Both the position numbers and the translations under genes were made by a program. Below the pieces are notes generated by a model. That model saw only the letters and a program-made list of their open reading frames with translations, was not told the DNA's origin and made no database searches. Below are positions 7,618 to 29,679 of a stretch of 48,136 nucleotides of DNA, one piece after another. Where the stretch lies: the IMG/VR virus record IMGVR_UViG_3300033064_003319, positions 1 to 48,136 of that record; one strand, written 5' to 3'. Numbering within the stretch: position 1 is the first letter of the stretch; every line of letters starts with the position of its first letter. The DNA is from a virus.

Positions 7618-8238
7618 ATGTCCATAAATTTTACAGAACAACAATTAGAAAAAATTATATCAGGAAATCAAAACACTGCCCGATGGTATACGGCACTGAT
7701 GGCATTTTTGGACGATTACAGTATTAATAGTCCTATCAGGATTGCTGCATTTCTTTCTCAGTGTGCCCATGAAAGTGCAGGGTTCACTGCTATCATAGAA
7801 AATTTAAATTATCGTCCTGAATCATTAATGCGTGTATGGCCTAGATCATTTCCCACTGCAGCTATTGCACAACAATATGGTCATAATCCAGAAGCAATTG
7901 CTAATCGTACGTATGCAAATCGAATGGGTAACGGAAGTGAAGCTAGTGGGGATGGCTTTAAATATTGCGGCAGAGGATTAATACAGTTAACAGGTAAATC
8001 AAATTATCAGGCTTTTGCAGACAGTATTGAAACTGATATTTCTAAAATACCAGAATACTTGTCTACATTTGAAGGATGTGTTCAGAGTGCATGTTTTTTC
8101 TGGGAAAGTAATAATTTAAATCAGTATGCGGATACTGGTGACATTGTTAAAATAACAAAAATTATAAATGGCGGAGTTTTAGGGTTAGACGATAGGACCG
8201 CTCGGTATCAAAATGCATTAACTGTGCTAGGAGCATAA
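7618..8238 (+). CDS. Endolysin, glycoside hydrolase family 19 (chitinase-like)
   Basis: 206 residues. Typical GH19 lysozyme/chitinase fold: FLSQCAHESAGF with the catalytic Glu at about 52, a second candidate acid at Glu61, YANRMGNG...SGDGFKYCGRGLIQLTGKSNY (about 100-130), and a C-terminal VKITKIINGG. It would cleave the glycan strands of peptidoglycan at the end of infection. There is no signal peptide, so release needs the holin encoded three genes later. It is the first gene of a compact lysis cassette with two spanins and a holin. Confidence 0.92.
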   Translation: MSINFTEQQLEKIISGNQNTARWYTALMAFLDDYSINSPIRIAAFLSQCAHESAGFTAIIENLNYRPESLMRVWPRSFPTAAIAQQYGHNPEAIANRTYANRMGNGSEASGDGFKYCGRGLIQLTGKSNYQAFADSIETDISKIPEYLSTFEGCVQSACFFWESNNLNQYADTGDIVKITKIINGGVLGLDDRTARYQNALTVLGA

Positions 8239-10430: not shown

Positions 10431-10925
10431 ATGCTACAAATATTAAAATTTCCCAATGTTATACTACGTCAATCAATTAAAAAATATGAATTTAATACCG
10501 GTGAGTATGATCCAATTCAATTAGAAAATGATTTAATTGAAACAATGTTGTTAAATGATGGAATTGGGTTAGCAGCGCCACAAGTAGGACTTGCCATTAG
10601 AGTATTTGTAATGGGGCATCGAGATAATCCAGAAGCTGCGCAAGCCTTTTTTAATCCAGAAGTAATTTCTTCAGTTAGTGAAATCGAAGATTTGGAAGAA
10701 GGCTGCTTGAGTTTTCCTGGAATTTATGTTAAAATTAAACGTCCTGTGAAAATTTTAGCACGTTGGCAAACTAGCAAAGGTGAGTGGCAAGAATCAGAAT
10801 TTGATGGATATAATTGCAAGTGCTTTCTACATGAATTAGATCATTTAGAAGGAATTGTATTCCAAGATAGAGTAAGTGCGTTAAAGTGGGCAGTAGCTGT
10901 CAAACAGAAACAAAAAAGGAAATAA
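10431..10925 (+). CDS. def: Peptide deformylase
   Basis: 164 residues. All three family motifs are intact: GIGLAAPQVG (44-53), EGCLSFP (90-96) and HELDHLEG (134-141). Cys92, His134 and His138 would hold the metal. It removes the formyl group from nascent chains. Phage deformylases usually lack the C-terminal tail of bacterial ones; this one ends with a short basic stretch (KQKQKRK). It follows dnaJ by 8 nt without a clear SD. Confidence 0.95.
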   Translation: MLQILKFPNVILRQSIKKYEFNTGEYDPIQLENDLIETMLLNDGIGLAAPQVGLAIRVFVMGHRDNPEAAQAFFNPEVISSVSEIEDLEEGCLSFPGIYVKIKRPVKILARWQTSKGEWQESEFDGYNCKCFLHELDHLEGIVFQDRVSALKWAVAVKQKQKRK

Positions 10926-13468: not shown

Positions 13469-13873
13469 ATGTCAGCATTAAGTCAAAGTTTAATTTTTAT
13501 TCCAGCTCAATCAGTGAATGCTAGCGGTACAGTTAGCATTACTTATCCAAATACTGCAACTAATACACTGGTATACCATAGTGATAAAGTAAAAGGCGAT
13601 GGGTATTACGGAGCAAGTGATGGATTACACACTGCAATGTATACAGCTAATCCTACATTTTTAGGTACAGTAACTATGCAAGCCACGTTATCAATTTCTC
13701 CTGTCGAAGGTGATTGGTTCAACGTAACCGGAACTACTACTTCATACAATAAATTTGATATTCGGACTACTACTACCGTAGATTATTGTAACTTTACTGG
13801 TAATTTTGTTTGGGTTCGAGGTCAAGTTTCAATTTCTCAGGGAAGTATTGATTCAATTCAATACAATCACTAA
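13469..13873 (+). CDS. Conserved virion protein-like
   Basis: 134 residues with TAGGA upstream. All-beta, Thr/Ser/Val-rich, with no charged helices: SLIFIPAQSVNASGTVSITYP, VEGDWFNVTGTTTSYNKFDIRTTTTVDYCNFTGNFVWVRGQV. The pattern is that of small structural proteins in T4-like marine phages, perhaps a tail or head decoration component. It has its own late-type promoter element and stands as a monocistronic unit between clpA and the next cluster. Confidence 0.7.
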   Translation: MSALSQSLIFIPAQSVNASGTVSITYPNTATNTLVYHSDKVKGDGYYGASDGLHTAMYTANPTFLGTVTMQATLSISPVEGDWFNVTGTTTSYNKFDIRTTTTVDYCNFTGNFVWVRGQVSISQGSIDSIQYNH

Positions 13874-13943: not shown

Positions 13944-14321
13944 ATGAAACTATTTGAATTTTTTGGAAAAGCAATCAGCGGTACTAATAAAGATTCCGGC
14001 GCAAGAGAAAACGACACAAAAATTAGTAACGACATTTTTTGGTTCATTGTGGATCATGATAAACTACACAAAGATTATTTGATTCCTTTAGCAAGAAAAA
14101 TTAAAAGTGATCACGACACGGGATCACTTGATAGGCATGAAATTGTTGAAAAATTTATGCCTATGACCAAAAAAGGATGTATGGAATTTTATCATAAGAA
14201 TAAAATGCAAGGAAAAGTAAGCAAATTATTTTCCAAAGAAATGAGAGATGATATTTGCGAAAAGTTGTACGATCACTTTGCCGAACACATAATCAAAGAT
14301 CAGTATAAGCTAGGACAATAA
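13944..14321 (+). CDS. Conserved phage protein with MKxxEFF leader
   Basis: 125 residues. The leader MKLFEFFGKA resembles the T4 capsid-targeting sequence (MKTYQEFIAEA) but has no clear (L/I)xE cut site. The rest is soluble and helical, with many Lys, Asp and His (IFWFIVDHDKLHKDYLIPLARKIKSDHD). No family is recognised. It heads a run of eight co-oriented, overlapping or abutting genes ending in a terminator at 20307. Confidence 0.65.
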   Translation: MKLFEFFGKAISGTNKDSGARENDTKISNDIFWFIVDHDKLHKDYLIPLARKIKSDHDTGSLDRHEIVEKFMPMTKKGCMEFYHKNKMQGKVSKLFSKEMRDDICEKLYDHFAEHIIKDQYKLGQ

Positions 14322-15353
14322 ATGAAGATTATTGATCTGTTACGGGAAGGCGGATGGGATACTACTGCTACTCAAGGAACTATTATTAATCCTGCTTTAG
14401 TTAAATCTGCATTAATAGTTGCACAACAGTTTGTAGTAGACTTTAACAATTATTTAAAACCTAAAGGTCTTGGTCCAGTAGCTATGGGTCGCCCAACAGG
14501 CAGCAGTGCTTATCATGAAAAAGATCAAGCAGAAAATCCGACTAAAATTTACGGTGATATTGATTTACAAATGATTGCGCCGCCAGTGGAAAATACTACG
14601 TATGGACAGTTTACTGCGTTGTGGACAAAATTGGCCGATGAATTTGTTAAAGCCAGTAATCCATCATATCTACATCCAACTGAAAGTAAGCCTGGGCACC
14701 CTATTATAAAAGTAGGTGCTGATCAATATGTGCAAGTTGACTTAATGTGGCATGAAGAAAAGATGCGGGATTGGGGCGCAACTCGAGTAACGCCCGAACA
14801 TGGAGTAAAAGGATTGCTATCCGGAAATATGTACAGTGTATTAGGTGAATTATTAGACATGAGTATTCAACATGCAGGAGTACAATTAAAAGTAGTTGAT
14901 AACTCTCGTGTGCCATTTAGCAAGCAAAAAGGTACTCAAACACTTACCATTACTATTAATCCTAAAACATTTATATACGATATATTTAAATATGAATATC
15001 AGCAAATTACTGGTAAGAATTTTGAAAAGTCTGTACCAGTAGATTCATTACTGACACAATATCCAGGCAATGATATTGATGATGTTAGAATTAGTAAACT
15101 GGCTAACGGTGTTAAAGGGCTTGCTCGTAGTTTTGAAATGAATAATATGTATGGAGATGGATCTCTTGCTAACTATAGTAATGCAAACGAGTTTATTTCA
15201 CGATTTGTTTCAAGATATGAAGAAAAAGCTATGGATGATGTTAATAATCCAAAAAGAAATAAAGCTTCTACTCCGGCTGCAATTGAACGTGCCGAAGATG
15301 ATAAGAAAAAAGTTTTGGACGGGCTAGCAATGGTCAAAGGATATTTTAAATGA
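14322..15353 (+). CDS. Pol-beta-type nucleotidyltransferase with capsid-targeting-like leader
   Basis: 343 residues, directly after the previous stop. The leader MKIIDLLREGG fits the T4 capsid-targeting form with a gp21-type LRE|G site. Then a nucleotidyltransferase core: helix with GRPTGSSAY (GSS at 60-62), YGDID (77-81, metal-binding Asp79 and Asp81), and VQVDLMWH with the third Asp at about 140. This arrangement is that of the DNA polymerase beta superfamily. The substrate (RNA end, protein, nucleotide) is unknown. The C-terminal ~180 residues are unrecognised. Confidence 0.7.
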   Translation: MKIIDLLREGGWDTTATQGTIINPALVKSALIVAQQFVVDFNNYLKPKGLGPVAMGRPTGSSAYHEKDQAENPTKIYGDIDLQMIAPPVENTTYGQFTALWTKLADEFVKASNPSYLHPTESKPGHPIIKVGADQYVQVDLMWHEEKMRDWGATRVTPEHGVKGLLSGNMYSVLGELLDMSIQHAGVQLKVVDNSRVPFSKQKGTQTLTITINPKTFIYDIFKYEYQQITGKNFEKSVPVDSLLTQYPGNDIDDVRISKLANGVKGLARSFEMNNMYGDGSLANYSNANEFISRFVSRYEEKAMDDVNNPKRNKASTPAAIERAEDDKKKVLDGLAMVKGYFK

Positions 15354-16219
15354 ATATGATTATAGAAGGTGGTAACGAATTTAAATTTGCCGACGGTACA
15401 AATGCAACTAAACAAAATGCTACGACTGATCAAGCAGCATCTGTACTAGATGTGTTAGGTACGCAAATTGGTATAGATTTACAAAGTCGTAAAGCAGGGT
15501 CTATCATTTATCCTCATGCAGAAACAGGCGATGCTGATACTGTATTAGATCCTGTTGATTTTATCAAAACATCTCCTGATGCTGCACCTAAAGACATACA
15601 AAATCAATTCAGAGCTTGGTTAGCTACTAAACTTCAACAAGCAGGTTATACAGAACTTCCGAAGAAAGCCACTATTGAAGGACCAGGCAAATATTATAAA
15701 ATTGCAGGCGATGGGCTAACTGCAATGGTACAGCTACCAGGAAGTCAAGAGTCGCTGCAAGTGGATTTAGACATTGCAGAACCAGGTGAAGGTAAATTCA
15801 GCACTTGGAGCAAACGTGGAGAGCCAAATGAACCAGGTACTCCTAAAGATGCTCGTGCTAAAGGTGCATATCGCCATATTTTAAAAACAGAAATTGGACG
15901 AGTACTAATCAGTGCTGAGTATCCGCAAGGCATGAGCTGGAGTTTTAAGAATGGATTATTGGATCGTGCAACCAATACCATTATTACTAAAGATCCAGAT
16001 GAAATCGCTAAGATATTGTTTGGTGGAACAGCAGCCGACTTGGACAATATACAATCTATTTTAACCAAGTTTAAACAAACACACCCAGACAAATACAACG
16101 ACGTAGTTTCTAAAGTTAATACAGGTCTGGAGAAATATAAAACTCAATATAAAATAAAAGAATCACATGTGTTTGGTAGTAGAGAATGGTTTAGATACTT
16201 AATGGATAACCTGCAATGA
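15350..16219 (+). CDS. Second nucleotidyltransferase-like protein
   Basis: 289 residues, coupled by ATGA to its neighbour. Short leader MNMIIEGG with a possible IIE|G cut site. It has HAETGDAD (Asp61, Asp63) and LQVDLDIAEPG (Asp139, Asp141), echoing the GDID...QVDL layout of the upstream gene, so the two may be distant paralogues acting together. KGAYRHILKTEIGRVL is a conserved-looking helix. The assignment to the pol-beta fold is weaker than for the upstream gene because the GS motif before the DxD is not evident. Confidence 0.5.
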   Translation: MNMIIEGGNEFKFADGTNATKQNATTDQAASVLDVLGTQIGIDLQSRKAGSIIYPHAETGDADTVLDPVDFIKTSPDAAPKDIQNQFRAWLATKLQQAGYTELPKKATIEGPGKYYKIAGDGLTAMVQLPGSQESLQVDLDIAEPGEGKFSTWSKRGEPNEPGTPKDARAKGAYRHILKTEIGRVLISAEYPQGMSWSFKNGLLDRATNTIITKDPDEIAKILFGGTAADLDNIQSILTKFKQTHPDKYNDVVSKVNTGLEKYKTQYKIKESHVFGSREWFRYLMDNLQ

Positions 16220-17379
16220 GAATTAGAGAATTATTAAGCGAAGCAGCTCCAGTTGGTCGAGAATATCAGCATCTTGAAGACTTATTAATCGTTAACGGTA
16301 GTGCCGGCGCACTTGAAGCACTTGATGAGCTAGCAGACGCAGCACGTGATCCGAGCACATTAGATTTAAAATGGGATGGCGGCGCGGCAGTATTTTGGGG
16401 ACGCAATGATAAAGGGCAATTTATTTTTTCCCCTAAAAATCAATGGAGCAAAAAACAACCGTTAGGAAAAGATGGATTAAGCTACGAGATTAAGAATACT
16501 GGCAGGCCTAGTGCCGGTCAGGATCCAGACCAGTTTGCTGCTATCCGTGATGGTATGGCTAAAAAGTATGATGCACTATGGGATATTTTTGAACGTGCCA
16601 CCCCTGCAAATTTTCGAGGATATTTAAACGGCGACTTGATGTTCACTGAGCCTCAGCAACCAGAAGCAAACGGAGAATATGTTTTTACTCCGAACAAAGT
16701 AACTTACACAGTTGATCCTAATGGGCTCGGTGGAAAAATAAAATCTGCTAGAGTTTTTGTAATTGTGCACGGAAAAATTGATGAATTTGGTGCAGATGCC
16801 AGCGGAAATATCACTGCAGTAGCTGATAACGTAATTGATCAATTTAATAAAGTTTCTGAGTTGATTGTATTGAACACACAAAAACCAAAAGTTAAAGTTA
16901 AGCCAATGAACACAGAGCTTAAACAAGCTATTCAATTTATTAATACTCATGCAGTAGAAATTGATGAAATTGCTAATTTTACAGCACCTAAATTTACTAC
17001 GTTGAAACAAATCATGTACACTTATGCAGTGGCAAGATCAAAAGTTGCAGGCGGACGTGATTTTGCACAATGGTTACAGACTAGTAAAGTTTCAGAAAAT
17101 CAAAAAGTGGTATTGCAAGATGTCATGCGCAAACCAAGTTGGCAAATTTTCTGGGCAGCGTTCCATCAAATACTCGATGCCAAACATGCCATACTAGATC
17201 AGTTGCACAGTGCAGGCGGCGAAGAAATGCAAAGCCGTTTGGGAATCCGCGCCAGTGTTGGCGGAAAAGCAGGAGGTGAAGGTATGGTAAAGAGTTTGAA
17301 GAGTGGTGGGTTAGGTAAATTAGTTAATCCTGAATTCCGTTCAGCACCAGTTAATCCACGATTTAAGCCAGAGGTATAA
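16216..17379 (+). CDS. Ligase/capping-superfamily-like protein (KWDG) with capsid-targeting-like leader
   Basis: 387 residues, coupled by ATGA. Leader MRIRELLSEAAP has a clear LSE|A gp21-type site. The core has LKWDGGAAVFWG, matching motif I (KxDG, Lys52) of covalent nucleotidyltransferases, GYLNGDLMF as a motif III-like segment, and near the end GGEGMVKSLKSGGLGK (Glu355, Lys359, Lys368), comparable with motifs IV and V (EGxVxK, KxK). It resembles a T4-like phage family of unknown function (I believe DUF6267-like). It could be an RNA/DNA ligase or an adenylating enzyme; the activity is untested. Confidence 0.6.
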   Translation: MRIRELLSEAAPVGREYQHLEDLLIVNGSAGALEALDELADAARDPSTLDLKWDGGAAVFWGRNDKGQFIFSPKNQWSKKQPLGKDGLSYEIKNTGRPSAGQDPDQFAAIRDGMAKKYDALWDIFERATPANFRGYLNGDLMFTEPQQPEANGEYVFTPNKVTYTVDPNGLGGKIKSARVFVIVHGKIDEFGADASGNITAVADNVIDQFNKVSELIVLNTQKPKVKVKPMNTELKQAIQFINTHAVEIDEIANFTAPKFTTLKQIMYTYAVARSKVAGGRDFAQWLQTSKVSENQKVVLQDVMRKPSWQIFWAAFHQILDAKHAILDQLHSAGGEEMQSRLGIRASVGGKAGGEGMVKSLKSGGLGKLVNPEFRSAPVNPRFKPEV

Positions 17380-17380
17380 T

Positions 17381-18106
17381 ATGTTTTTATCAGAATTTTT
17401 TAACAAAACAACATCACGAAAATTAAATTTTAGAAAAGTAGTGACAACAGAATCAATTGCTCGCACTGGACAAAATGATACTGCTGTTATTGGATGGGGG
17501 CGCGGAATGGGGCACAAAGGTCATATGTATCTAGCCAGCAGTGTTATTACTCATGCCAAACAGTTGGGTGCTGATCCGTATTTTATTGTATCTCGCACTG
17601 TGGGAAAAGATGATCCTATTACTCCTGATGAAAAGCTGGCCATATATAAAAAAGTATTTCCTCAAAGTGGTCATATTTTCCAAACTGCCACTGATGAAAT
17701 GCCAGACCTTACAAGAGTATTAAGCAATTTATATCAGCAAGGATATAAAAACGCAGTGGTTATAGTGGGGGCTGATCAAAAGGCAGCATTAGGATATGTA
17801 AAGAATTACAACGGAAAACCAGACAAAGCGGGCAATATTCTGTTTAATTTTGATAGTTTAGATGTTATAAGTCGTCAAGAAACAGCAGATCCTAGTGCTG
17901 GAGAAGAAGGCCCGCGTGCTACACCTATGCGAGCTGTATTAAATGATCCTAGTAAATCAGAAGAGGAACAATTTGCAGTATGGCGTGATGCAATGAATCC
18001 AGAAATCAGTGATGATGAAGTACGGGATTTGATGATAAAGGCAAAATCTCGTATGTCTGCAGCATCTGTACCAAAACCAAAAGTTAAAAAAGTCGCCACA
18101 TTATGA
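17381..18106 (+). CDS. HIGH-type nucleotidyltransferase (NMNAT/cytidylyltransferase-like)
   Basis: 241 residues with AGAGG upstream. Leader MFLSEFFNKTTS is of the same general type as its neighbours. Rossmann-like core: TAVIGWGRGMGHKGHMYLA, with GHKGH (44-48) in place of the usual HxGH nucleotide-binding motif, then VSRTVGKDDPITPDEKLAIYKKVFP, typical of the nicotinamide-nucleotide adenylyltransferase/cytidylyltransferase superfamily, and VIVGADQ. It would transfer an AMP or CMP group from an NTP. NMN as acceptor is plausible but not shown. Confidence 0.65.
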   Translation: MFLSEFFNKTTSRKLNFRKVVTTESIARTGQNDTAVIGWGRGMGHKGHMYLASSVITHAKQLGADPYFIVSRTVGKDDPITPDEKLAIYKKVFPQSGHIFQTATDEMPDLTRVLSNLYQQGYKNAVVIVGADQKAALGYVKNYNGKPDKAGNILFNFDSLDVISRQETADPSAGEEGPRATPMRAVLNDPSKSEEEQFAVWRDAMNPEISDDEVRDLMIKAKSRMSAASVPKPKVKKVATL

Positions 18107-18360
18107 AACAATATAGAATTACAAGCGAAAATATAACTCCTATAAGCGATGACGACTGTTACCTTTCCCCGGACGACCCTATACACGAATTAAAAATTGC
18201 CAGCATGTTAGGCGGGTTAGGATCTGAAGAAAGATTAGCTGAATATAAACGTAAGAATCATAAATATTCTAACCCAATTAAAAGTAAGGCACAGATCATG
18301 CGAGAACAGAATATCCAGCCAGGTACTGATGCATGGTTCAAATTATTTTTTGCTAAATAA
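18103..18360 (+). CDS. Conserved small phage protein (PGTDAWFKLFF)
   Basis: 85 residues, coupled by ATGA to the HIGH-type enzyme. Basic and partly disordered, with a conserved-looking C-terminal block (KSKAQIMREQNIQPGTDAWFKLFF) that I have seen in T4-like marine phage proteins. It lacks the MRxxEF leader of its neighbours. The function is unknown; coupling suggests a partner of the upstream enzyme. Confidence 0.7.
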   Translation: MKQYRITSENITPISDDDCYLSPDDPIHELKIASMLGGLGSEERLAEYKRKNHKYSNPIKSKAQIMREQNIQPGTDAWFKLFFAK

Positions 18361-18417
18361 AATTAATAACTGAGTGTTATGGCTAATGCTCTTAATATAT
18401 ATTAACTATAGATAACA

Positions 18418-18786
18418 ATGAGAGCTAAAGAATTTATTAACGAAGCAGAAGGTAAAATACATCCAGATTTTGCTAAAGCAACACAGGGTGTCACTAGAAT
18501 GCGAGATGTTGGAGGGTATGATCGTACATATCACCTAAACAGAATCTGGATGGCAGCGGCCATGGCTGATGGTAAAAGCGGTAAAGCAGTAGATATAGAT
18601 ACTGCCAGTTGGTCTGAAAAATATAATGTAGCAATCCCATACACTGATGCAGAACATTTAATGGTGATGGCCGCAATGGCTACTATTCCTACTGACGGGC
18701 AAGAATTGCAAAAGCGTAGCAAAAGTGTCGAACCAGATGATACTTATACCATTAGTCCTGTGAATAATTGGAATAAGAAAAAATGA
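18418..18786 (+). CDS. Putative head-packaged protein A (MRAKEFINEA leader)
   Basis: 122 residues. The leader MRAKEFINEAEGK is very close to the T4 capsid-targeting sequence MKTYQEFIAEA and has an INE|A site. The body contains GGYDRTYHLNRIWMAAAMADG and YNVAIPYTDAEHLMVMAAM, helical and without a known fold, ending SPVNNWNKKK. It seems paralogous to the next gene in length, leader and C-terminal NW motif. It is translationally coupled to it (ATGA). Confidence 0.65.
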   Translation: MRAKEFINEAEGKIHPDFAKATQGVTRMRDVGGYDRTYHLNRIWMAAAMADGKSGKAVDIDTASWSEKYNVAIPYTDAEHLMVMAAMATIPTDGQELQKRSKSVEPDDTYTISPVNNWNKKK

Positions 18787-19163
18787 GAGCTCGAGAATTT
18801 ATTTTAGAAAGGACGTTAGGACAATTATCAGCTGATCAAGCTAGTGCATTACCTGGGGCATTTGTTCTTCCTGAATTAGCTAATCAAGATGCGTATCTAC
18901 AATATAGAATGGGAGTTGCATTAGCTGCAGTTCGTGGTGCTAAAAGTCGGGCCGAGGATGGGTTTGATGATTTTAATTCAGTAACTGCATGGGGAGAAAA
19001 TCAAGTAATAATAGGATATTCCCAAGATGAAAACCTTGATCAACTGCTAAATGACGCATTGAAACTAATGGGGAAGAGTAAGAAAATCATGACTAGTACT
19101 GTCACTAGCAAGGAGACTGCAGATATTTACACTCGTAGTCCAATATCTAACTGGATGAAATAA
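18783..19163 (+). CDS. Putative head-packaged protein B (MRAREFILER leader)
   Basis: 126 residues. Leader MRAREFILERTLG with an ILE|R site. The body has PGAFVLPEL, AYLQYRMGVALAAVRGAKSR and a C-terminal SPISNWMK that parallels SPVNNWNKKK of the upstream gene, so the pair likely arose by duplication and has diverged. No catalytic motif is seen. It sits between the upstream paralogue and the basic modular protein, overlapping both by a few bases. Confidence 0.65.
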   Translation: MRAREFILERTLGQLSADQASALPGAFVLPELANQDAYLQYRMGVALAAVRGAKSRAEDGFDDFNSVTAWGENQVIIGYSQDENLDQLLNDALKLMGKSKKIMTSTVTSKETADIYTRSPISNWMK

Positions 19164-20287
19164 TGATTAGCGAATTTAAAATTAGAAAAACAGCATCTGA
19201 AACAATTTATGTATTGGAAGATGGTACAAGTGGCGGCACTAGCTCTGGTGCAATTGCATCTATCGCAATGCCAGTAGGGGCCGTTATTAAAAGAACTCCG
19301 ACTAAGAAAAAATCTTTTACTAAATCGGTAAGTTCTGTGGCAGAGGAAGGAAAGACAATGAGTCGTATTGCCAAAGGAAATGAGAAGTATGGCAAAGACG
19401 GTATGCGGGCACTGGCCAAAGCTGGGCGTGATGGTGCCAGTGAGAAAAAGTTAGATGCCATTCGTAACAAGCACGACAATTATAATGAAGAATGGAGTAA
19501 AACTTACAAGAGCAGTATTAATTGTAGTCATCCTAAAGGGTTTAGTCAAAAAGCTCATTGTGCTGGCAAGAAAAAACATACAGAAAGTATCATGACAATG
19601 GAAGACACTTGTCCAGATTGCGGTAAATGTCAAACACATGGTGATCTTAATGAGATCAAAAAAGGTGCTAAAGATTCAAATGGATTTACCAGTTGCTGGT
19701 CGGGCTATCATGCCGCAGGCACTAAGAAAAGTGCTACAACTGGCAAGTCAGTAAGAAATTGTGTGCCTAATGAAGGAGTGGATGCATATACTGCACGATT
19801 ACAAGAAGCACTTGATAACAAAATAGTGAATAGTCCGCCACCAAGAAATTTTGTAGCCAAAAATGCAAAAACTGCAGGATCAGGTGCCCACTCAGATAAG
19901 AGTAAAACTATTCCTCGACATGAAAAGCACAAAACTAATTTTAAAGAATCAGAAGGTTCTCCCGAAGGAATGCCACATGTTTCTAAAAAGCTATTACAAC
20001 ATATTGTACAGCAAATAGGAACAGATGGAGTTAAAGCATTGATTAAAAGTCTAAAATGGGGAGACGGAGCTGCTGGTGAATTATTGACCCTCATCACTCA
20101 GAATTTAAAGAAATCTGCTCAAGAAATGAAAGAATCGTCTTTACAGGAAAAAATACCTGCAGGTGCGGATGTAGATTACTATATCAAAGATTTTTCAAAA
20201 TCAAACGCGCCACAATTTAAAAATAAAACTGCTGAAAAGAAAAAGCGTATGGCTATCGCAGCCTACTACGCTAGCAAGCAAAAATAA
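19163..20287 (+). CDS. Basic, modular, Lys-rich putative internal head protein
   Basis: 374 residues, strongly basic, probably DNA-associated. It reads as a string of short modules: a KYGKDGMRALAKAGRDG segment, CSHPKGFSQKAHCAGKKKH, a Cys cluster CPDCGKC that could bind zinc, a GFTSCWSGYHAAGTKKSATTGKSVRNCVPNE block, a helical section, and a closing YYIKDFSKSNAPQFKNKTAEKKKRMAIAAYY block. Several of these recur in T4-like phage proteins of unknown role. Leader MISEFKIRKT is only loosely like its neighbours'. It ends the cluster, just before a terminator. Confidence 0.6.
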   Translation: MISEFKIRKTASETIYVLEDGTSGGTSSGAIASIAMPVGAVIKRTPTKKKSFTKSVSSVAEEGKTMSRIAKGNEKYGKDGMRALAKAGRDGASEKKLDAIRNKHDNYNEEWSKTYKSSINCSHPKGFSQKAHCAGKKKHTESIMTMEDTCPDCGKCQTHGDLNEIKKGAKDSNGFTSCWSGYHAAGTKKSATTGKSVRNCVPNEGVDAYTARLQEALDNKIVNSPPPRNFVAKNAKTAGSGAHSDKSKTIPRHEKHKTNFKESEGSPEGMPHVSKKLLQHIVQQIGTDGVKALIKSLKWGDGAAGELLTLITQNLKKSAQEMKESSLQEKIPAGADVDYYIKDFSKSNAPQFKNKTAEKKKRMAIAAYYASKQK

Positions 20288-20729: not shown

Positions 20730-23396
20730 ATGGGTTATGTAGATGGTATGTGGGATAAAGAAAAAGATGTAATTAGAGTAGTAGAACGTGATCCAAAAAA
20801 AGGAAGACTCTACCAGGAATACCCCGCTAGATATATGTTCTATTATCCTGATGGACGAGGAAAATTTAAATCTATTTTTGGGGAAAATCTTACTAAAGTT
20901 ACGGCCAAAACAAATAAAGATTTTATTAAAGAACAACGAGTACACTCAACTCACAAGCTGTATGAATCTGATATTAATCCTATCTTCCGATGCCTTGAAG
21001 ATAATTATCTGGGCAAGGAACCTCCCAAGCTGAATGTGGCATTTTGGGATATTGAAGTAGATTTTGATCCAGAACGTGGTTATGCATCTCCTGATGATGC
21101 GTTTATGCCAATTACTGCTATTTCCGTACATTTACAATGGCTAGATACGTTGGTTTGCTTGGCAGTGCCTCCAAAAACACTTACTATGGAGCAAGCATCT
21201 GAACTAGTTAAGGACATTCCTAATACTATTCTATATGAAACTGAACGAGAAATGCTGGACACTTTTCTTAATCTAATTGAAGATGCTGATATTCTAAGTG
21301 GGTGGAACAGTGAAGGATTTGATATTCCGTATACCGTTAATCGGGTAATTAAAAAATTAAGCAAAGAAGATACTCGTAGATTTTGTTTATGGAATCAGTC
21401 TCCAAAGAAACGAGAATACGAAAAGTTTGGAAAAACTGCTAATACGTATGATCTTGTTGGACGTGTGCACTTGGATAGTTTGAATTTGTATAGAAAATAT
21501 ACCTACGAAGAGAGACATAGTTATCGACTTGATGCAATTGCTGAATATGAGCTAGGTGAAACTAAAACTGTATATGAAGGCACATTGGACCAGCTATACA
21601 ATAATGACTTCCGAAAGTTTATTGAATATAACAGACAAGATACTGCACTATTAGATAAATTAGATAAAAAATTAAAGTTTATTGATCTTGCGAATACTGT
21701 TGCTCATGAAAACACTGTACTACTACAAACTACCATGGGCGCAGTTGCAGTAACTGAACAAGCTATTATCAATGAGGCACACTATCGAGGGTTAATTGTG
21801 CCTTCCCGTGCTAGACGTGATGATAGTGTCAGTACCCAAGCAGCCGGTGCTTATGTTGCGCACCCTAAAAAAGGACTGCATGAGTGGATCGGATCGATGG
21901 ACATTAACTCACTATATCCGTCCGTGATTAGGGCACTGAATATGGGACCTGAAACAATTGTTGGACAATTACGACAAGATTACACAAATGCTGAAATTGA
22001 ATCAAAAATTGAAAAAGGTTCCAGTTTTGCAGCAGCATGGGAAGGTAAATTTGGGTCAAACGAATATGAGTTTGTGATGTCTGAAGATCGTTCCCATGAC
22101 ATCATAATTGATTGGGAAAATGGTGAAACCAGTATCATGTCAGGTGCACAGATATTTGAATTAATTTTTGATAGTGGTAAACCTTGGATGATGAGTGCTA
22201 ATGGTACTATTTTTACGCATGAGTTTGAAGGAATTATTCCTGGACTTTTAGCAAGATGGTACTCTGAAAGAAAAACCATGCAAGCTTCATTAAGGGCTGC
22301 AATTGATGCAGGGAATAAAATTGAAGAAGAATACTGGGATAAACGACAGCTTGTTAAAAAAATTAATCTTAATAGTTTATATGGTGCTATTCTTAACGCT
22401 GGTTGTAGGTTCTTTGACAATCGTATTGGACAGTCAACTACTCTCACAGGCCGGCAAATTGCCAAACATATGGCTTCAAAGGTAAACGAAGTAATTACCG
22501 GTGATTACAACTACGTGGGTAAAAGCATTATATATGGTGATACAGACTCTGTATATTTCAGTGCATATACCACTCTAAAGTCAGAAATTGATAAAGGTGA
22601 GATTCAGTGGGGTAAAGATACTGTTCTAAGTTTATATGATACAATATCAGATGAAGTAAACAGCACCTTCCCTTCATTTATGTCAGATGGGTTCCATTGT
22701 CCAAAATCTCGCGGAGATGTAATTAAGGCTGGCCGAGAAATTGTTGCAAGTAAAGGGTTATTCATTACTAAAAAACGGTATGCAGTGTTGTACTATGATA
22801 AAGATGGAAAGAGACAGGATACCAACGGCAAAGAAGGTAAAATTAAAGCCATGGGGCTTGATTTAAAAAGATCAGATACCCCGGAATTTATGCAAACTTT
22901 TTTGGAAGAAATACTTACTAAAGTATTGTATGGTGCACAGGAAAAGGAAATTCTGGCCAGAATTAGTGAATTTCGCTCTGAATTCAAAGCTAAACCTGGA
23001 TGGGAAAAAGGTTCTCCTAAACGTGCAAACAATATTGCAGAATATCAAAAGAAGGAAGAAAAAGGTAAAACCACTATGCCTGGTCATGTTCGCGCATCAA
23101 TTAATTGGAATACATTAAAGAGAATGAACAGCGACAAATATTCTATTAATATTGTTGATGGAATGAAAGTAATTGTTTGTAAAATGCGTACGAATCCATT
23201 GGGTTATACATCAGTTGCTTATCCAACTGATGAATTACGGTTGCCTAAATGGTTCCAGGAGTTGCCATTTGAACATGACGAAATGGAAATGACAATCATT
23301 GATAATAAATTAGATAATCTTATTGGTGTATTGGATTGGGACCTAAATAGCACTACCAATACAAATAATTTTGGTAATCTTTTTAGCTTTGATTAA
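20730..23396 (+). CDS. 43: DNA polymerase, family B (gp43)
   Basis: 888 residues (T4 gp43 is 898) with AAGGAG upstream. Exonuclease domain: Exo I FWDIEVD (Asp107, Glu109), Exo II GWNSEGFDIPY (about 190-200), Exo III EYNRQDTALLDKL. Polymerase domain: motif A DINSLYPS (from 391), motif B KINLNSLYG (about 543-552), motif C YGDTDS (Asp604, Asp606). All catalytic residues are present, so it should be an active proofreading replicase. The C-terminal end (NNFGNLFSFD) is like the clamp-binding tail of T4-type polymerases. The clamp gene follows. Confidence 0.97.
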   Translation: MGYVDGMWDKEKDVIRVVERDPKKGRLYQEYPARYMFYYPDGRGKFKSIFGENLTKVTAKTNKDFIKEQRVHSTHKLYESDINPIFRCLEDNYLGKEPPKLNVAFWDIEVDFDPERGYASPDDAFMPITAISVHLQWLDTLVCLAVPPKTLTMEQASELVKDIPNTILYETEREMLDTFLNLIEDADILSGWNSEGFDIPYTVNRVIKKLSKEDTRRFCLWNQSPKKREYEKFGKTANTYDLVGRVHLDSLNLYRKYTYEERHSYRLDAIAEYELGETKTVYEGTLDQLYNNDFRKFIEYNRQDTALLDKLDKKLKFIDLANTVAHENTVLLQTTMGAVAVTEQAIINEAHYRGLIVPSRARRDDSVSTQAAGAYVAHPKKGLHEWIGSMDINSLYPSVIRALNMGPETIVGQLRQDYTNAEIESKIEKGSSFAAAWEGKFGSNEYEFVMSEDRSHDIIIDWENGETSIMSGAQIFELIFDSGKPWMMSANGTIFTHEFEGIIPGLLARWYSERKTMQASLRAAIDAGNKIEEEYWDKRQLVKKINLNSLYGAILNAGCRFFDNRIGQSTTLTGRQIAKHMASKVNEVITGDYNYVGKSIIYGDTDSVYFSAYTTLKSEIDKGEIQWGKDTVLSLYDTISDEVNSTFPSFMSDGFHCPKSRGDVIKAGREIVASKGLFITKKRYAVLYYDKDGKRQDTNGKEGKIKAMGLDLKRSDTPEFMQTFLEEILTKVLYGAQEKEILARISEFRSEFKAKPGWEKGSPKRANNIAEYQKKEEKGKTTMPGHVRASINWNTLKRMNSDKYSINIVDGMKVIVCKMRTNPLGYTSVAYPTDELRLPKWFQELPFEHDEMEMTIIDNKLDNLIGVLDWDLNSTTNTNNFGNLFSFD

Positions 23397-26723: not shown

Positions 26724-27617
26724 ATGGCAAAGCGTAGTTTAATAGTAGGAATGGGAATTGGTCAATTATATAAAGATGTCCTCACTAATTTAGGGCATGA
26801 AATAGTAACAGTTGATATTGATACAACCAAAGATGTCAACTTCCATTCTGTTCAAGACGCCCTTGACAAATATCAAATATTTGACACAGTGCATATTTGT
26901 ACTCCAAATTTCACACATTACGATATAGCAGAGCAAGTTGCATCGCATGCATGTATTGTATTCGTAGAAAAACCCGGAGTTGAAACAAGCGAATATTGGA
27001 AACATCTAATTGAAGCTAATCCGTGGACTCGATTCATGATGGTTAAAAACAACATGTGGCGAACAAATATTAAAGAATTGAAACAGTGTGCTGAAGATTC
27101 TGTTCAAGTAAATATTGATTGGATTAACATTGATAGAGTGCCAAATCCAGGTACATGGTTCACCACAAAGAGGTTATCGTACGGCGGTGTTAGTCGAGAT
27201 CTTATGCCGCATCTGTTGAGCATATTCATGGCACTGGATACAGCATATTCCAAATACCAAGAAACTATTGTATTCTCTGAACAACAATGGAAATTAGAAG
27301 ATTTAACGCAAACTGATTACGGCGTAGTAAAACACGACGGTACGTATGATGTTGACGATTTTTGTCAATTGCAATTTCGACGACTAGATAAGATTTGGAA
27401 TCTTCGAGCGCAGTGGCGAAATACAGTGATGGATAGTAAACAGATTGAATTTATTATGACGGATGGTTCTAGTAAAATATTTGAATTAGGTCTTTGCCCA
27501 GAAGATGCTTACCAAAATATGATTGCAGACTCAGTAGCCAACATGGATAATGACGAATTTTGGTTAGCTCAAAATTTTCAAGATTTATGGATACACCAAA
27601 AAGTTGAGTCACTATGA
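26724..27617 (+). CDS. Gfo/Idh/MocA-type NAD(P)-dependent oxidoreductase
   Basis: 297 residues with AAAGG upstream. N-terminal Rossmann fold with GMGIG (9-13), the family's VEKPG motif (EKP at 82-84), and a C-terminal alpha/beta domain. Family members oxidise or reduce sugars and sugar-like compounds. The substrate is unknown. It is coupled by ATGA to the SulP permease and heads the operon with its own promoter. It may take part in nucleotide-sugar or cofactor chemistry during infection. Confidence 0.75.
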   Translation: MAKRSLIVGMGIGQLYKDVLTNLGHEIVTVDIDTTKDVNFHSVQDALDKYQIFDTVHICTPNFTHYDIAEQVASHACIVFVEKPGVETSEYWKHLIEANPWTRFMMVKNNMWRTNIKELKQCAEDSVQVNIDWINIDRVPNPGTWFTTKRLSYGGVSRDLMPHLLSIFMALDTAYSKYQETIVFSEQQWKLEDLTQTDYGVVKHDGTYDVDDFCQLQFRRLDKIWNLRAQWRNTVMDSKQIEFIMTDGSSKIFELGLCPEDAYQNMIADSVANMDNDEFWLAQNFQDLWIHQKVESL

Positions 27618-28786
27618 AATTTAAAGACGCACAAAAAAACACGCTAGCAGGAATTACAACTAGTCTGGCAATGGTCCCTGAAGTAGTTGCATTTGCGTTA
27701 TTAGCACAAATTAATCCAATAGCAGGACTATATGCTGCATTCATATTAGGATTAGTTACTGCAATATTTGGCGGACGAACAGGACTTATTAGTGGCGGTG
27801 CTGGCAGCCTTGCAGTAGTTAGTGTTGCACTGGTTATCACTCACGGAATTGAATATCTATTTGCATGTATAGTTATTATGGGTATTATACAATTTGCATT
27901 CGGAGCTTTAAAATTAGGCAATTTGATTAAACTGGTGAGCCCTAGTGTGATGACAGGATTTGTTAATGGTTTAGCTCTTGTTATTTTCTTTGCTCAGTTC
28001 CACCAATTAAAAACTAATGATGTATGGGTCATAGATCCGCAATTGTATATTATGATGGGATTGATTGTTGTAACAGTATCCAGTGTATTCATTGCTCCCA
28101 AACTAACACGCATTATTCCTGCAAGTTTGTTTGGAATTTGTGTAGTTACATTAGTTACTATTACTTTTGACATTAATACAGCAGTGGTAGGGGATATAGC
28201 AAAAATTGGAGGAGCATTTCCGACCTTTCATATTCCGCTGGTTCCAATGACATTGGAAACTTTATGGATTGTATTACCTTATAGTTTAATATTATCGGCA
28301 GTTGGTTTGATTGAAACACTTTTAACTGCTAACTTAGTTGACAGTATTATAAATGATCCAAATAATAAAGCTCGTCCTAATAAAGAAAGTATGGCACAAG
28401 GTGCTGGTAATTTTTTAACTGGACTTTTTGGCGGCATGGGTGGATGTGCCATGATAGGACAAACTGTAATCAATCTTGAAGCAGGCGGATTTCAAAGGCT
28501 AGCTGCTGTTGTTCAGAGTTTATGCATTCTTGCTTATATTTTATTTGCATCATTTATTATTGAATCAATACCACTTGCTGCACTAATAGGAGTAATGTTT
28601 GTTGTATGTTATCATACTTTTGATTGGAGTAGCCTAAATATTAGAAATAAGCCAACAGAAGATACTTGTATTATGTTAGTAGTAACTGTATTAACTGTTG
28701 TGCTCAATCTTGCATATGCAGTAATATTAGGAGTTTTGCTGACAAGTGTGCTATACTATTGGAAACATGTTAAAAAAGATCTATGA
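27614..28786 (+). CDS. SulP-family anion permease (no STAS domain)
   Basis: 390 residues, almost entirely hydrophobic, with ~10 or more membrane segments. SulP/SLC26 hallmarks: GITTSLAMVPEVVAFALLA, PIAGLYAAFILGLVTAIFGGRTGLISGGAGSLAVV, a GFVNGLALVIFFAQF helix and a GNFLTGLFGGMGGCAMIGQ loop-helix. The C-terminal STAS domain of most members is missing, so it is a transport core only. Sulfate or another anion such as bicarbonate is the likely cargo. It is coupled on both sides by ATGA to two oxidoreductase genes. Confidence 0.85.
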   Translation: MKFKDAQKNTLAGITTSLAMVPEVVAFALLAQINPIAGLYAAFILGLVTAIFGGRTGLISGGAGSLAVVSVALVITHGIEYLFACIVIMGIIQFAFGALKLGNLIKLVSPSVMTGFVNGLALVIFFAQFHQLKTNDVWVIDPQLYIMMGLIVVTVSSVFIAPKLTRIIPASLFGICVVTLVTITFDINTAVVGDIAKIGGAFPTFHIPLVPMTLETLWIVLPYSLILSAVGLIETLLTANLVDSIINDPNNKARPNKESMAQGAGNFLTGLFGGMGGCAMIGQTVINLEAGGFQRLAAVVQSLCILAYILFASFIIESIPLAALIGVMFVVCYHTFDWSSLNIRNKPTEDTCIMLVVTVLTVVLNLAYAVILGVLLTSVLYYWKHVKKDL

Positions 28787-29679
28787 AAACTAAACTATTA
28801 TATACTGCAGGTGATGGTAAATTTGTGGAGACAGACTGGGAAGTTCCTGCGTTGTTGCCAAATCAAATCATGGTTAAGGCTGTGATGACTGGGGTATGTC
28901 GCAGCGATATTGATATGATGTCAGGCGGGTTTGGGCCGTTGCCAATACATATGAGTGGGCATGAAGGACTTGGCAAGGTGATGGAAGTAGGCAGTGATGT
29001 TTCAAACATCAGCGTAGGCGATTATGTTGCAACACGAGGTGAACCTGCATACGCAAATTGTTATCCGTGTAATGATGGAGAATTTGTTCAAGTGCCCGTT
29101 GCACATGCTCGATATATTTTAGAACCAGTGGCATGCGGAATTAATCTAATCAATCAGCCAATGCGTGAAATTATTGAACGCAGCGGTCCAGGAAAACGCT
29201 TGTTGATTATAGGCAGTGGATTTCTTGCGTGGGTTGCATATCATACCATCATGCTCAACCATCTAGAATTTGATATCACTGTGCATGGACGTAGTAATGT
29301 AGCCATGTGGGGAAATAAATTATCTAATGTAATCAACGGCGAATTTGACGTGATAATTGATCTTAATAGTGGTACTCAAGTATTCAATGATGAAATTGTA
29401 AAGCCTAATGCGCTGGTTGTGCTGGGTGCTCAAAAAACAGTAACCACTGATTTCAGTTCGTTATTGTGGAAAGCATGCACTATGATTTTTCCAAGCCCAC
29501 GCACTGCAGGATTCCTGCAGTGCATGAAAGACGCTGAAAAATGGATAACAAACGGCGATATTCAGGTTGATTCTTTCTGGACTACCTGTTATAATCGTAC
29601 TACACAATGGCAAGATGCATTTGCAGACGGTGCAGCTAGACCACCTGGTTATAGCCGCGGTTACATTAAATGGGATTAA
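28783..29679 (+). CDS. Zinc-type medium-chain dehydrogenase (MDR family)
   Basis: 298 residues, coupled by ATGA to the permease. GroES-like catalytic domain with GVCRSDIDMM (Cys39, the zinc-ligand position) and SGHEGLGKVMEVG (His60, Glu61), then a Rossmann domain with IIGSGFLAW. The structural-zinc Cys cluster of typical alcohol dehydrogenases is reduced to CYPC (93-96), and the protein is shorter than the usual ~340 residues. The substrate is unknown. Confidence 0.75.
   Translation: MKTKLLYTAGDGKFVETDWEVPALLPNQIMVKAVMTGVCRSDIDMMSGGFGPLPIHMSGHEGLGKVMEVGSDVSNISVGDYVATRGEPAYANCYPCNDGEFVQVPVAHARYILEPVACGINLINQPMREIIERSGPGKRLLIIGSGFLAWVAYHTIMLNHLEFDITVHGRSNVAMWGNKLSNVINGEFDVIIDLNSGTQVFNDEIVKPNALVVLGAQKTVTTDFSSLLWKACTMIFPSPRTAGFLQCMKDAEKWITNGDIQVDSFWTTCYNRTTQWQDAFADGAARPPGYSRGYIKWD

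Follow-up and report, generated by a model that had tools for sequence, protein, structure and literature searches.

Organization of the leader-bearing gene cluster

The window analysed here, a stand-alone viral contig 48,136 bases long (IMG/VR record IMGVR_UViG_3300033064_003319), carries between positions 13944 and 20287 an almost gapless run of plus-strand genes whose products begin with short leaders resembling the capsid-targeting sequence of T4 internal proteins. The preliminary description had reported eight such co-oriented genes, and all eight are present with exactly the N-termini quoted there. The run opens with a 125-amino acid (aa) protein of unknown function (13944-14321; leader MKLFEFFGK, 13944-13970, with K at P1, the residue preceding the cut), followed by a nucleotidyltransferase (NTase)-like enzyme of 343 aa (14322-15353; leader MKIIDLLRE, 14322-14348; predicted cut LRE↓GGW) and by a second NTase-like protein of 289 aa, whose leader MNMIIE is shorter (15350-16219; leader 15350-15367; predicted cut IIE↓GGN). 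Next come a 387-aa DUF6267 protein with a KxDG motif (16216-17379; leader MRIRELLSE, 16216-16242; predicted cut LSE↓A) and a 241-aa NMNAT/cytidylyltransferase-like enzyme with an HKGH motif (17381-18106; leader 17381-17452; predicted cut TTE↓S at residue 24). A ninth gene of the run, encoding an 85-aa protein (18103-18360), lacks such a leader and has homologues in the same gene order. The run then continues with an unknown 122-aa protein (18418-18786; leader MRAKEFINE, 18418-18444; predicted cut INE↓A), a 126-aa protein (18783-19163; leader MRAREFILE, 18783-18809; predicted cut ILE↓R) and a mosaic 374-aa protein with Cys-rich modules (19163-20287; leader 19163-19219; predicted cut VLE↓D at residue 19).

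The T4 protease gp21 cuts after L/I-x-E, and in the T4 leader residues 4 and 7 serve targeting and residues 8 and 10 processing (PMC9026906); in the window leaders they correspond to residues 3, 6, 7 and 9. Five of the eight leaders had been described as carrying an L/I-x-E site, a count that stands for the literal motif (343-, 289-, 387-, 122- and 126-aa proteins), while the likely cuts of the 241-aa and 374-aa proteins are placed at residues 24 and 19. The three remaining leaders show VLE in the 374-aa protein, where P3 is not L or I, TTE in the cytidylyltransferase and the K at P1 in the 13944 product.

Enrichment of the leader pattern

A pattern derived from six of the cluster leaders, M[KRF][IALF]x[ED][LF][LIF], is matched by 6 of the 9 cluster genes and by none of the 58 other genes in the window, a comparison that is partly circular. 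Applied unchanged to a separate 236-kb relative (G001), it is found in 3 of the 26 genes that form two leader clusters and in 0 of 321 elsewhere (p=3.8e-4), and a loose form of it in 9/26 genes inside the clusters vs 8/321 outside (p=2.9e-7). One of these G001 clusters has a clpA-like gene on one side and the DNA polymerase on the other, as in the window; the second, at 95.9-102.7 kb, encodes small, very basic proteins (RKNRIVAKMQQCF...) resembling internal head proteins.

Conservation of the predicted cleavage sites

When the leaders are compared across homologues, their sequence drifts while the L/I-x-E site is conserved at P3 and P1, and the bodies behind them are unrelated. In the 343-aa family, E9 and the catalytic motif are invariant and residues 2-8 vary. 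For the 289-aa protein, a search returned 23 homologues, and the homologues compared at the site all have a hydrophobic residue, any residue and then E-GGN. The 126-aa protein, for which viral homologues were found, was grouped with the 122-aa protein by leader and position, and in this combined family E9 is present in 12/12 distinct members. Homologues of the DUF6267 protein are encoded at eighty loci, nearly all of them with a leader such as MRFTEFRTVLTEA ahead of VGREYQHLED, and among the unfused ones 51 of 52 distinct sequences have [LIVMF]xE at the leader site; the leader is absent from the homologues of cyanophages P-HM1, DSL-LC02, S-SZBM1 and S-SM1 and of a further relative (G003). For the 13944 product, distant homologues found with phmmer begin MRIDEF or MRLVEF, and the gene at its position in a 345-kb relative (G014) begins MRIRELLEN.

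Such drift is also seen in the cytidylyltransferase, whose homologues, at 52-79% identity to the window protein, differ widely in leader sequence (MFLRNIFE, MRLRELLKE, MLLRQLFE and MNIKDILVE, among others). Counting back from the body, 27 of 28 distinct N-termini have Glu at position -4 (P1; entropy 0.22), and -6 (P3) usually holds a hydrophobic residue (1.44); besides these, only -2 (P2') is low (1.18), with 2.2-3.0 at the rest. Since 27/28 distinct homologues have E there, the window protein (MFLSEFF...) is more likely cut at residue 24, TTE↓S. Similarly, homologues of the 374-aa protein with short leaders end in xNE or xKE ahead of the same body, so that VLE↓D at residue 19 is the likely cut. 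In relatives, the modules of this protein occur as leader-bearing genes of their own or within others, and its Cys-rich module SIxCSxPKGFSQxAHCAGxKK stands behind leaders on quite different bodies (window 19163-20287; G001 202946-204214; L056 6868-8058). In the cluster, a short N-terminal leader is thus common to unrelated bodies, and judged by these sequence comparisons the leaders are real and no chance resemblance.

Predicted cut sites within fused proteins

In close relatives the second NTase and the DUF6267 protein form one chain, to which the cytidylyltransferase is also appended in some. All 28 distinct NTase-DUF6267 junctions contain [LIVM]xE, mostly followed by A, and the triple fusions NTase-DUF6267-cytidylyltransferase (L197, L199 and L218) have IQE or LQE at the homologous place of the second junction. 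Overall, [LIVMF]xE is found at 35/35 fused-protein junctions vs a background of 6.3% per 10-aa window, a count that gives no probability because the fused sequences are related to each other. P3 and P1 have been kept at these junctions while the surrounding residues diverged, a conservation that is hard to explain without cleavage.

It is an even call whether these phages make up to three enzymes per chain, in the order NTase-DUF6267-cytidylyltransferase, under one N-terminal address label, with the prohead protease cutting the conserved [L/I/V]xE joints inside the head before injection, the same enzymes being otherwise single proteins. In G014, the 122-aa protein has its counterpart in a domain that follows the cytidylyltransferase in one chain and retains its own leader there (MKANEFIKE↓G), an internal leader by which the idea of one leader per chain is ruled out.

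Predicted activities of the cluster products

The 343-aa protein has the motif GSS..D79xD81..D140, invariant among its homologues, and its fold, in a low-confidence model, matches mostly Pol-beta-type NTases (E>=0.0056); by motif it would be a Pol-beta-type NTase, the structure matches being weak. A tblastn search with this protein gave no match. A related NTase motif was read by eye in the 289-aa sequence. The 387-aa protein matches Pfam PF19782 (DUF6267; E=8.8e-21, 75.1 bits vs a cut-off of 27), a family in which KWDG is invariant. Its structure model (predicted local distance difference test, pLDDT, 86) shows a disordered leader, with residues 1-15 below pLDDT 50, and several of its top structure matches are RNA/DNA ligases, none significant. 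The 241-aa protein matches PHROG 3041 (cytidylyltransferase; E=6e-20). PDB sequence searches with the DUF6267, 343-aa and cytidylyltransferase proteins gave nothing useful. The putative cargo would be dominated by nucleotide-transfer enzymes, namely two Pol-beta-type NTases, the KxDG protein and an NMNAT-like cytidylyltransferase, plus unknowns.

Virion proteomes, prohead protease and capsid protein in related phages

Direct data on virion content are available for cyanophages. The virion proteome of S-CREM2 comprises 52 of its 219 proteins (PMC10665884). A T4-type leader rule matches 5/219 S-CREM2 genes, and all five products are in the virion (p=6.5e-4): a S-adenosylmethionine (SAM) hydrolase, a kinase, the cytidylyltransferase and two unknowns, none of them annotated as a structural protein. 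A broader rule that asked for [LI]xE anywhere in residues 4-16 proved too unspecific and gave way to stricter ones, 18 of the 31 matching S-CREM2 genes being outside the virion. The Cas9-like nuclease gp12 of this phage (OR473000, 7704-10313), also in the virion, has a leader-like site, FASFMAEA, near residue 19. In S-SZBM1 (PMC9146016), one of three rule matches is in the virion, and the two phages combined give 6/8 (p=7.6e-4). The leaderless DUF6267 homologue of S-SZBM1, which adjoins the cytidylyltransferase, is absent from the virion list of 30. The cytidylyltransferase of S-SM1 has also been reported in virions (PMC3037559) and its N-terminus reads MKKFSAFLNEA, so that leader-bearing cytidylyltransferases are found in the virions of S-CREM2, S-SZBM1 and S-SM1.

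The corresponding protease was sought in relatives. Because a search for gp20-gp23 in the fragments G001-G005 and the first loci found none, the analysis turned to G014, a relative that is both closer and longer, which is largely collinear with the window and whose polymerase is 71% identical to the window's. G014 encodes a Gp23 capsid protein with an S77 (gp21-type) prohead protease close by, and this protease is likewise present in the close relatives G015 and G018. The G014 capsid protein reads ...KYLME↓SPTAGATS and those of cyanophages LTE↓A, both candidate cuts placed by motif.

Interpretation and alternative explanations

The cluster very probably encodes the internal head cargo of a large T4-superfamily phage, carrying T4-type capsid-targeting leaders, which would be packaged, cut and ejected with the DNA. 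The conservation of P3 and P1, the sites at fused junctions, the gp21 homologue of a close relative and the cyanophage virion proteomes all fit the gp21-cut leaders that the preliminary description had proposed. Several observations weigh against this reading. MKLFEFFGK of the 13944 product, with K where E is expected, is the weakest case, and the commonest cytidylyltransferase form is a short MLLREFLN with the less typical site LRE↓F. The cyanophage rule is the most specific among several tried; with a looser T4-like rule, false matches bring the S-CREM2 value to p=0.06. Some S-CREM2 virion proteins, such as the NTase gp156, have no leader. In S-SZBM1, the small proteins 191 and 192 carry clear leaders and went undetected in the virion, one rule match is spurious and the set by itself is not significant (p=0.36). 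The virion evidence thus comes from cyanophages, supportive in S-CREM2 and mixed in S-SZBM1, and for the phage of the window virion presence is predicted from sequence; the window, being a fragment, holds no head genes.

The alternative that survives best, although improbable, is that the proteins enter the prohead and are cut there as parts of the scaffold or core, like T4 gp22, gp67 and gp68, to be degraded and lost. The core proteins of T4 are indeed cut to small peptides by the same protease (PMC9958956), but the invariant catalytic motifs, the persistence of homologous cytidylyltransferases in mature virions and the conserved site at the body boundary argue against such a fate. It is very improbable that the enzymes are cytoplasmic and contaminate virions, the leader serving as a different signal for N-terminal processing or degradation. 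For the S-CREM2 and S-SCSM1 preparations, the authors left open that abundant proteins had been carried over (PMC10665884, PMC9602691), yet 5/5 S-CREM2 leader genes are in the virion vs 52/219 overall, and L/I-x-E, the motif seen at the site, is the one published for gp21. Gene duplication or common short amphipathic starts, without a targeting role, deserve equally little credence. In their favour, the leaders are short and the 122-aa and 126-aa proteins have a common leader and position, but the bodies belong to unrelated families, the pattern is missing from the 58 other window genes and from 321 in G001, and P1/P3 conservation holds also at internal junctions, which have no N-terminus.

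If the cluster does encode head cargo, the short amphipathic leader would, as in T4, bind the scaffold core during prohead assembly, and a gp21/S77-type prohead protease would cut after L/I-x-E at the boundary between leader and body. The cut leader would leave and DNA would be packaged around the mature proteins, which would then enter the host together with it. Their action would probably fall in the earliest phase of infection, when they might modify host molecules, adjust nucleotide or NAD pools, or counter nucleotide- or NAD-based defence. Because the fused chains have this cut site at their joints, it is also probable that the protease releases the individual enzymes within the prohead.

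Genomic context

Directly upstream of the cluster, a leaderless homologue of a virion structural protein (13469-13873, plus strand) matches PHROG 14467 (head and packaging; E=3.2e-7), and downstream lies the gp43-type DNA polymerase (20730-23396, plus strand). The run is kept across many marine phages as the 13469 and 13944 homologues, DUF6267, the cytidylyltransferase, the 18103 homologue, further leader genes and the DNA polymerase. A GIY-YIG-like endonuclease open reading frame (ORF) sits within the conserved leader cluster of one locus (L036, 6828-7448). A megablast search of the cluster vs phage records gave no match. The polymerases nearest to that of the window belong to large T4-superfamily phages, Phosso and Atu_ph07; in these jumbo phages the order clpA-DNA polymerase is common with the window, but other genes lie between.

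Elsewhere, the window encodes in a row (26724-29679) a MocA-type oxidoreductase, a sulfate permease (SulP) family transporter, a membrane transporter unusual for a phage, and an alcohol-dehydrogenase-like protein, together with a peptide deformylase (10431-10925) and a GH19 chitinase/lysozyme-like protein (7618-8238). At another locus (L003, 11828-14185), the UvsX gene appears to be split by an intein-like element that includes a nuclease-like ORF.

Relation to known systems and significance

The closest known parallel is that of the T4 internal proteins IPI, IPII and IPIII, in which unrelated bodies are likewise preceded by a short N-terminal leader that has hydrophobic residues in corresponding positions and is cleaved after L/I-x-E; an S77 protease is a further common feature, found here in near relatives. 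The window bodies are unrelated to theirs and the leader usually has 9 residues instead of 10; moreover, the cargo here consists of clustered enzymes with fused relatives that carry internal sites. That a leader suffices to target a foreign protein has been shown for T4 only (PMC9026906).

Alt of T4 is an ADP-ribosyltransferase that is packaged in the head and loses its propeptide to gp21. The window proteins would resemble it as head-carried, N-terminally processed enzymes, whereas here the enzymes are NTases, several side by side, and no Pfam match of the ADP-ribosyltransferase kind was found. As T4 capsid-targeting cargo already includes this enzyme, packaged in the same general way, the new cargo system claimed in the preliminary description is too strong a term, while its proposal that enzymes are among the cargo is supported. 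The cytidylyltransferase/NMNAT of cyanophage virions (T4-GC190; S-SM1, S-CREM2, S-SZBM1 and S-SCSM1) is a homologous enzyme that was published as virion-associated without an address signal, although the leader is present in the S-SM1, S-CREM2 and S-SZBM1 sequences; the adjacent DUF6267 homologue is leaderless in the four cyanophages checked. In the giant phages SPN3US, phiKZ and 201phi2-1, many internal proteins are matured after Glu by a gp21-related protease, but their propeptides are mostly much longer, the motif is A/S-x-E and the proteins are different (PMC5694885). Hence, the capsid-targeting label of T4 and the cytidylyltransferase of cyanophage virions are already known, whereas the enzyme set and the apparently protease-cut polyproteins look new.

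The leader and the site rule offer a sequence-only way to find proteins injected by phages along with their DNA. The rule picks NTases and NMNAT-like enzymes as well as, in S-CREM2, a SAM hydrolase and a kinase, activities that likely act before phage gene expression. The address label offers an explanation for the cytidylyltransferases that have repeatedly turned up unexplained in cyanophage virions, and the findings point to cargo that is made as polyproteins and cut within the prohead.

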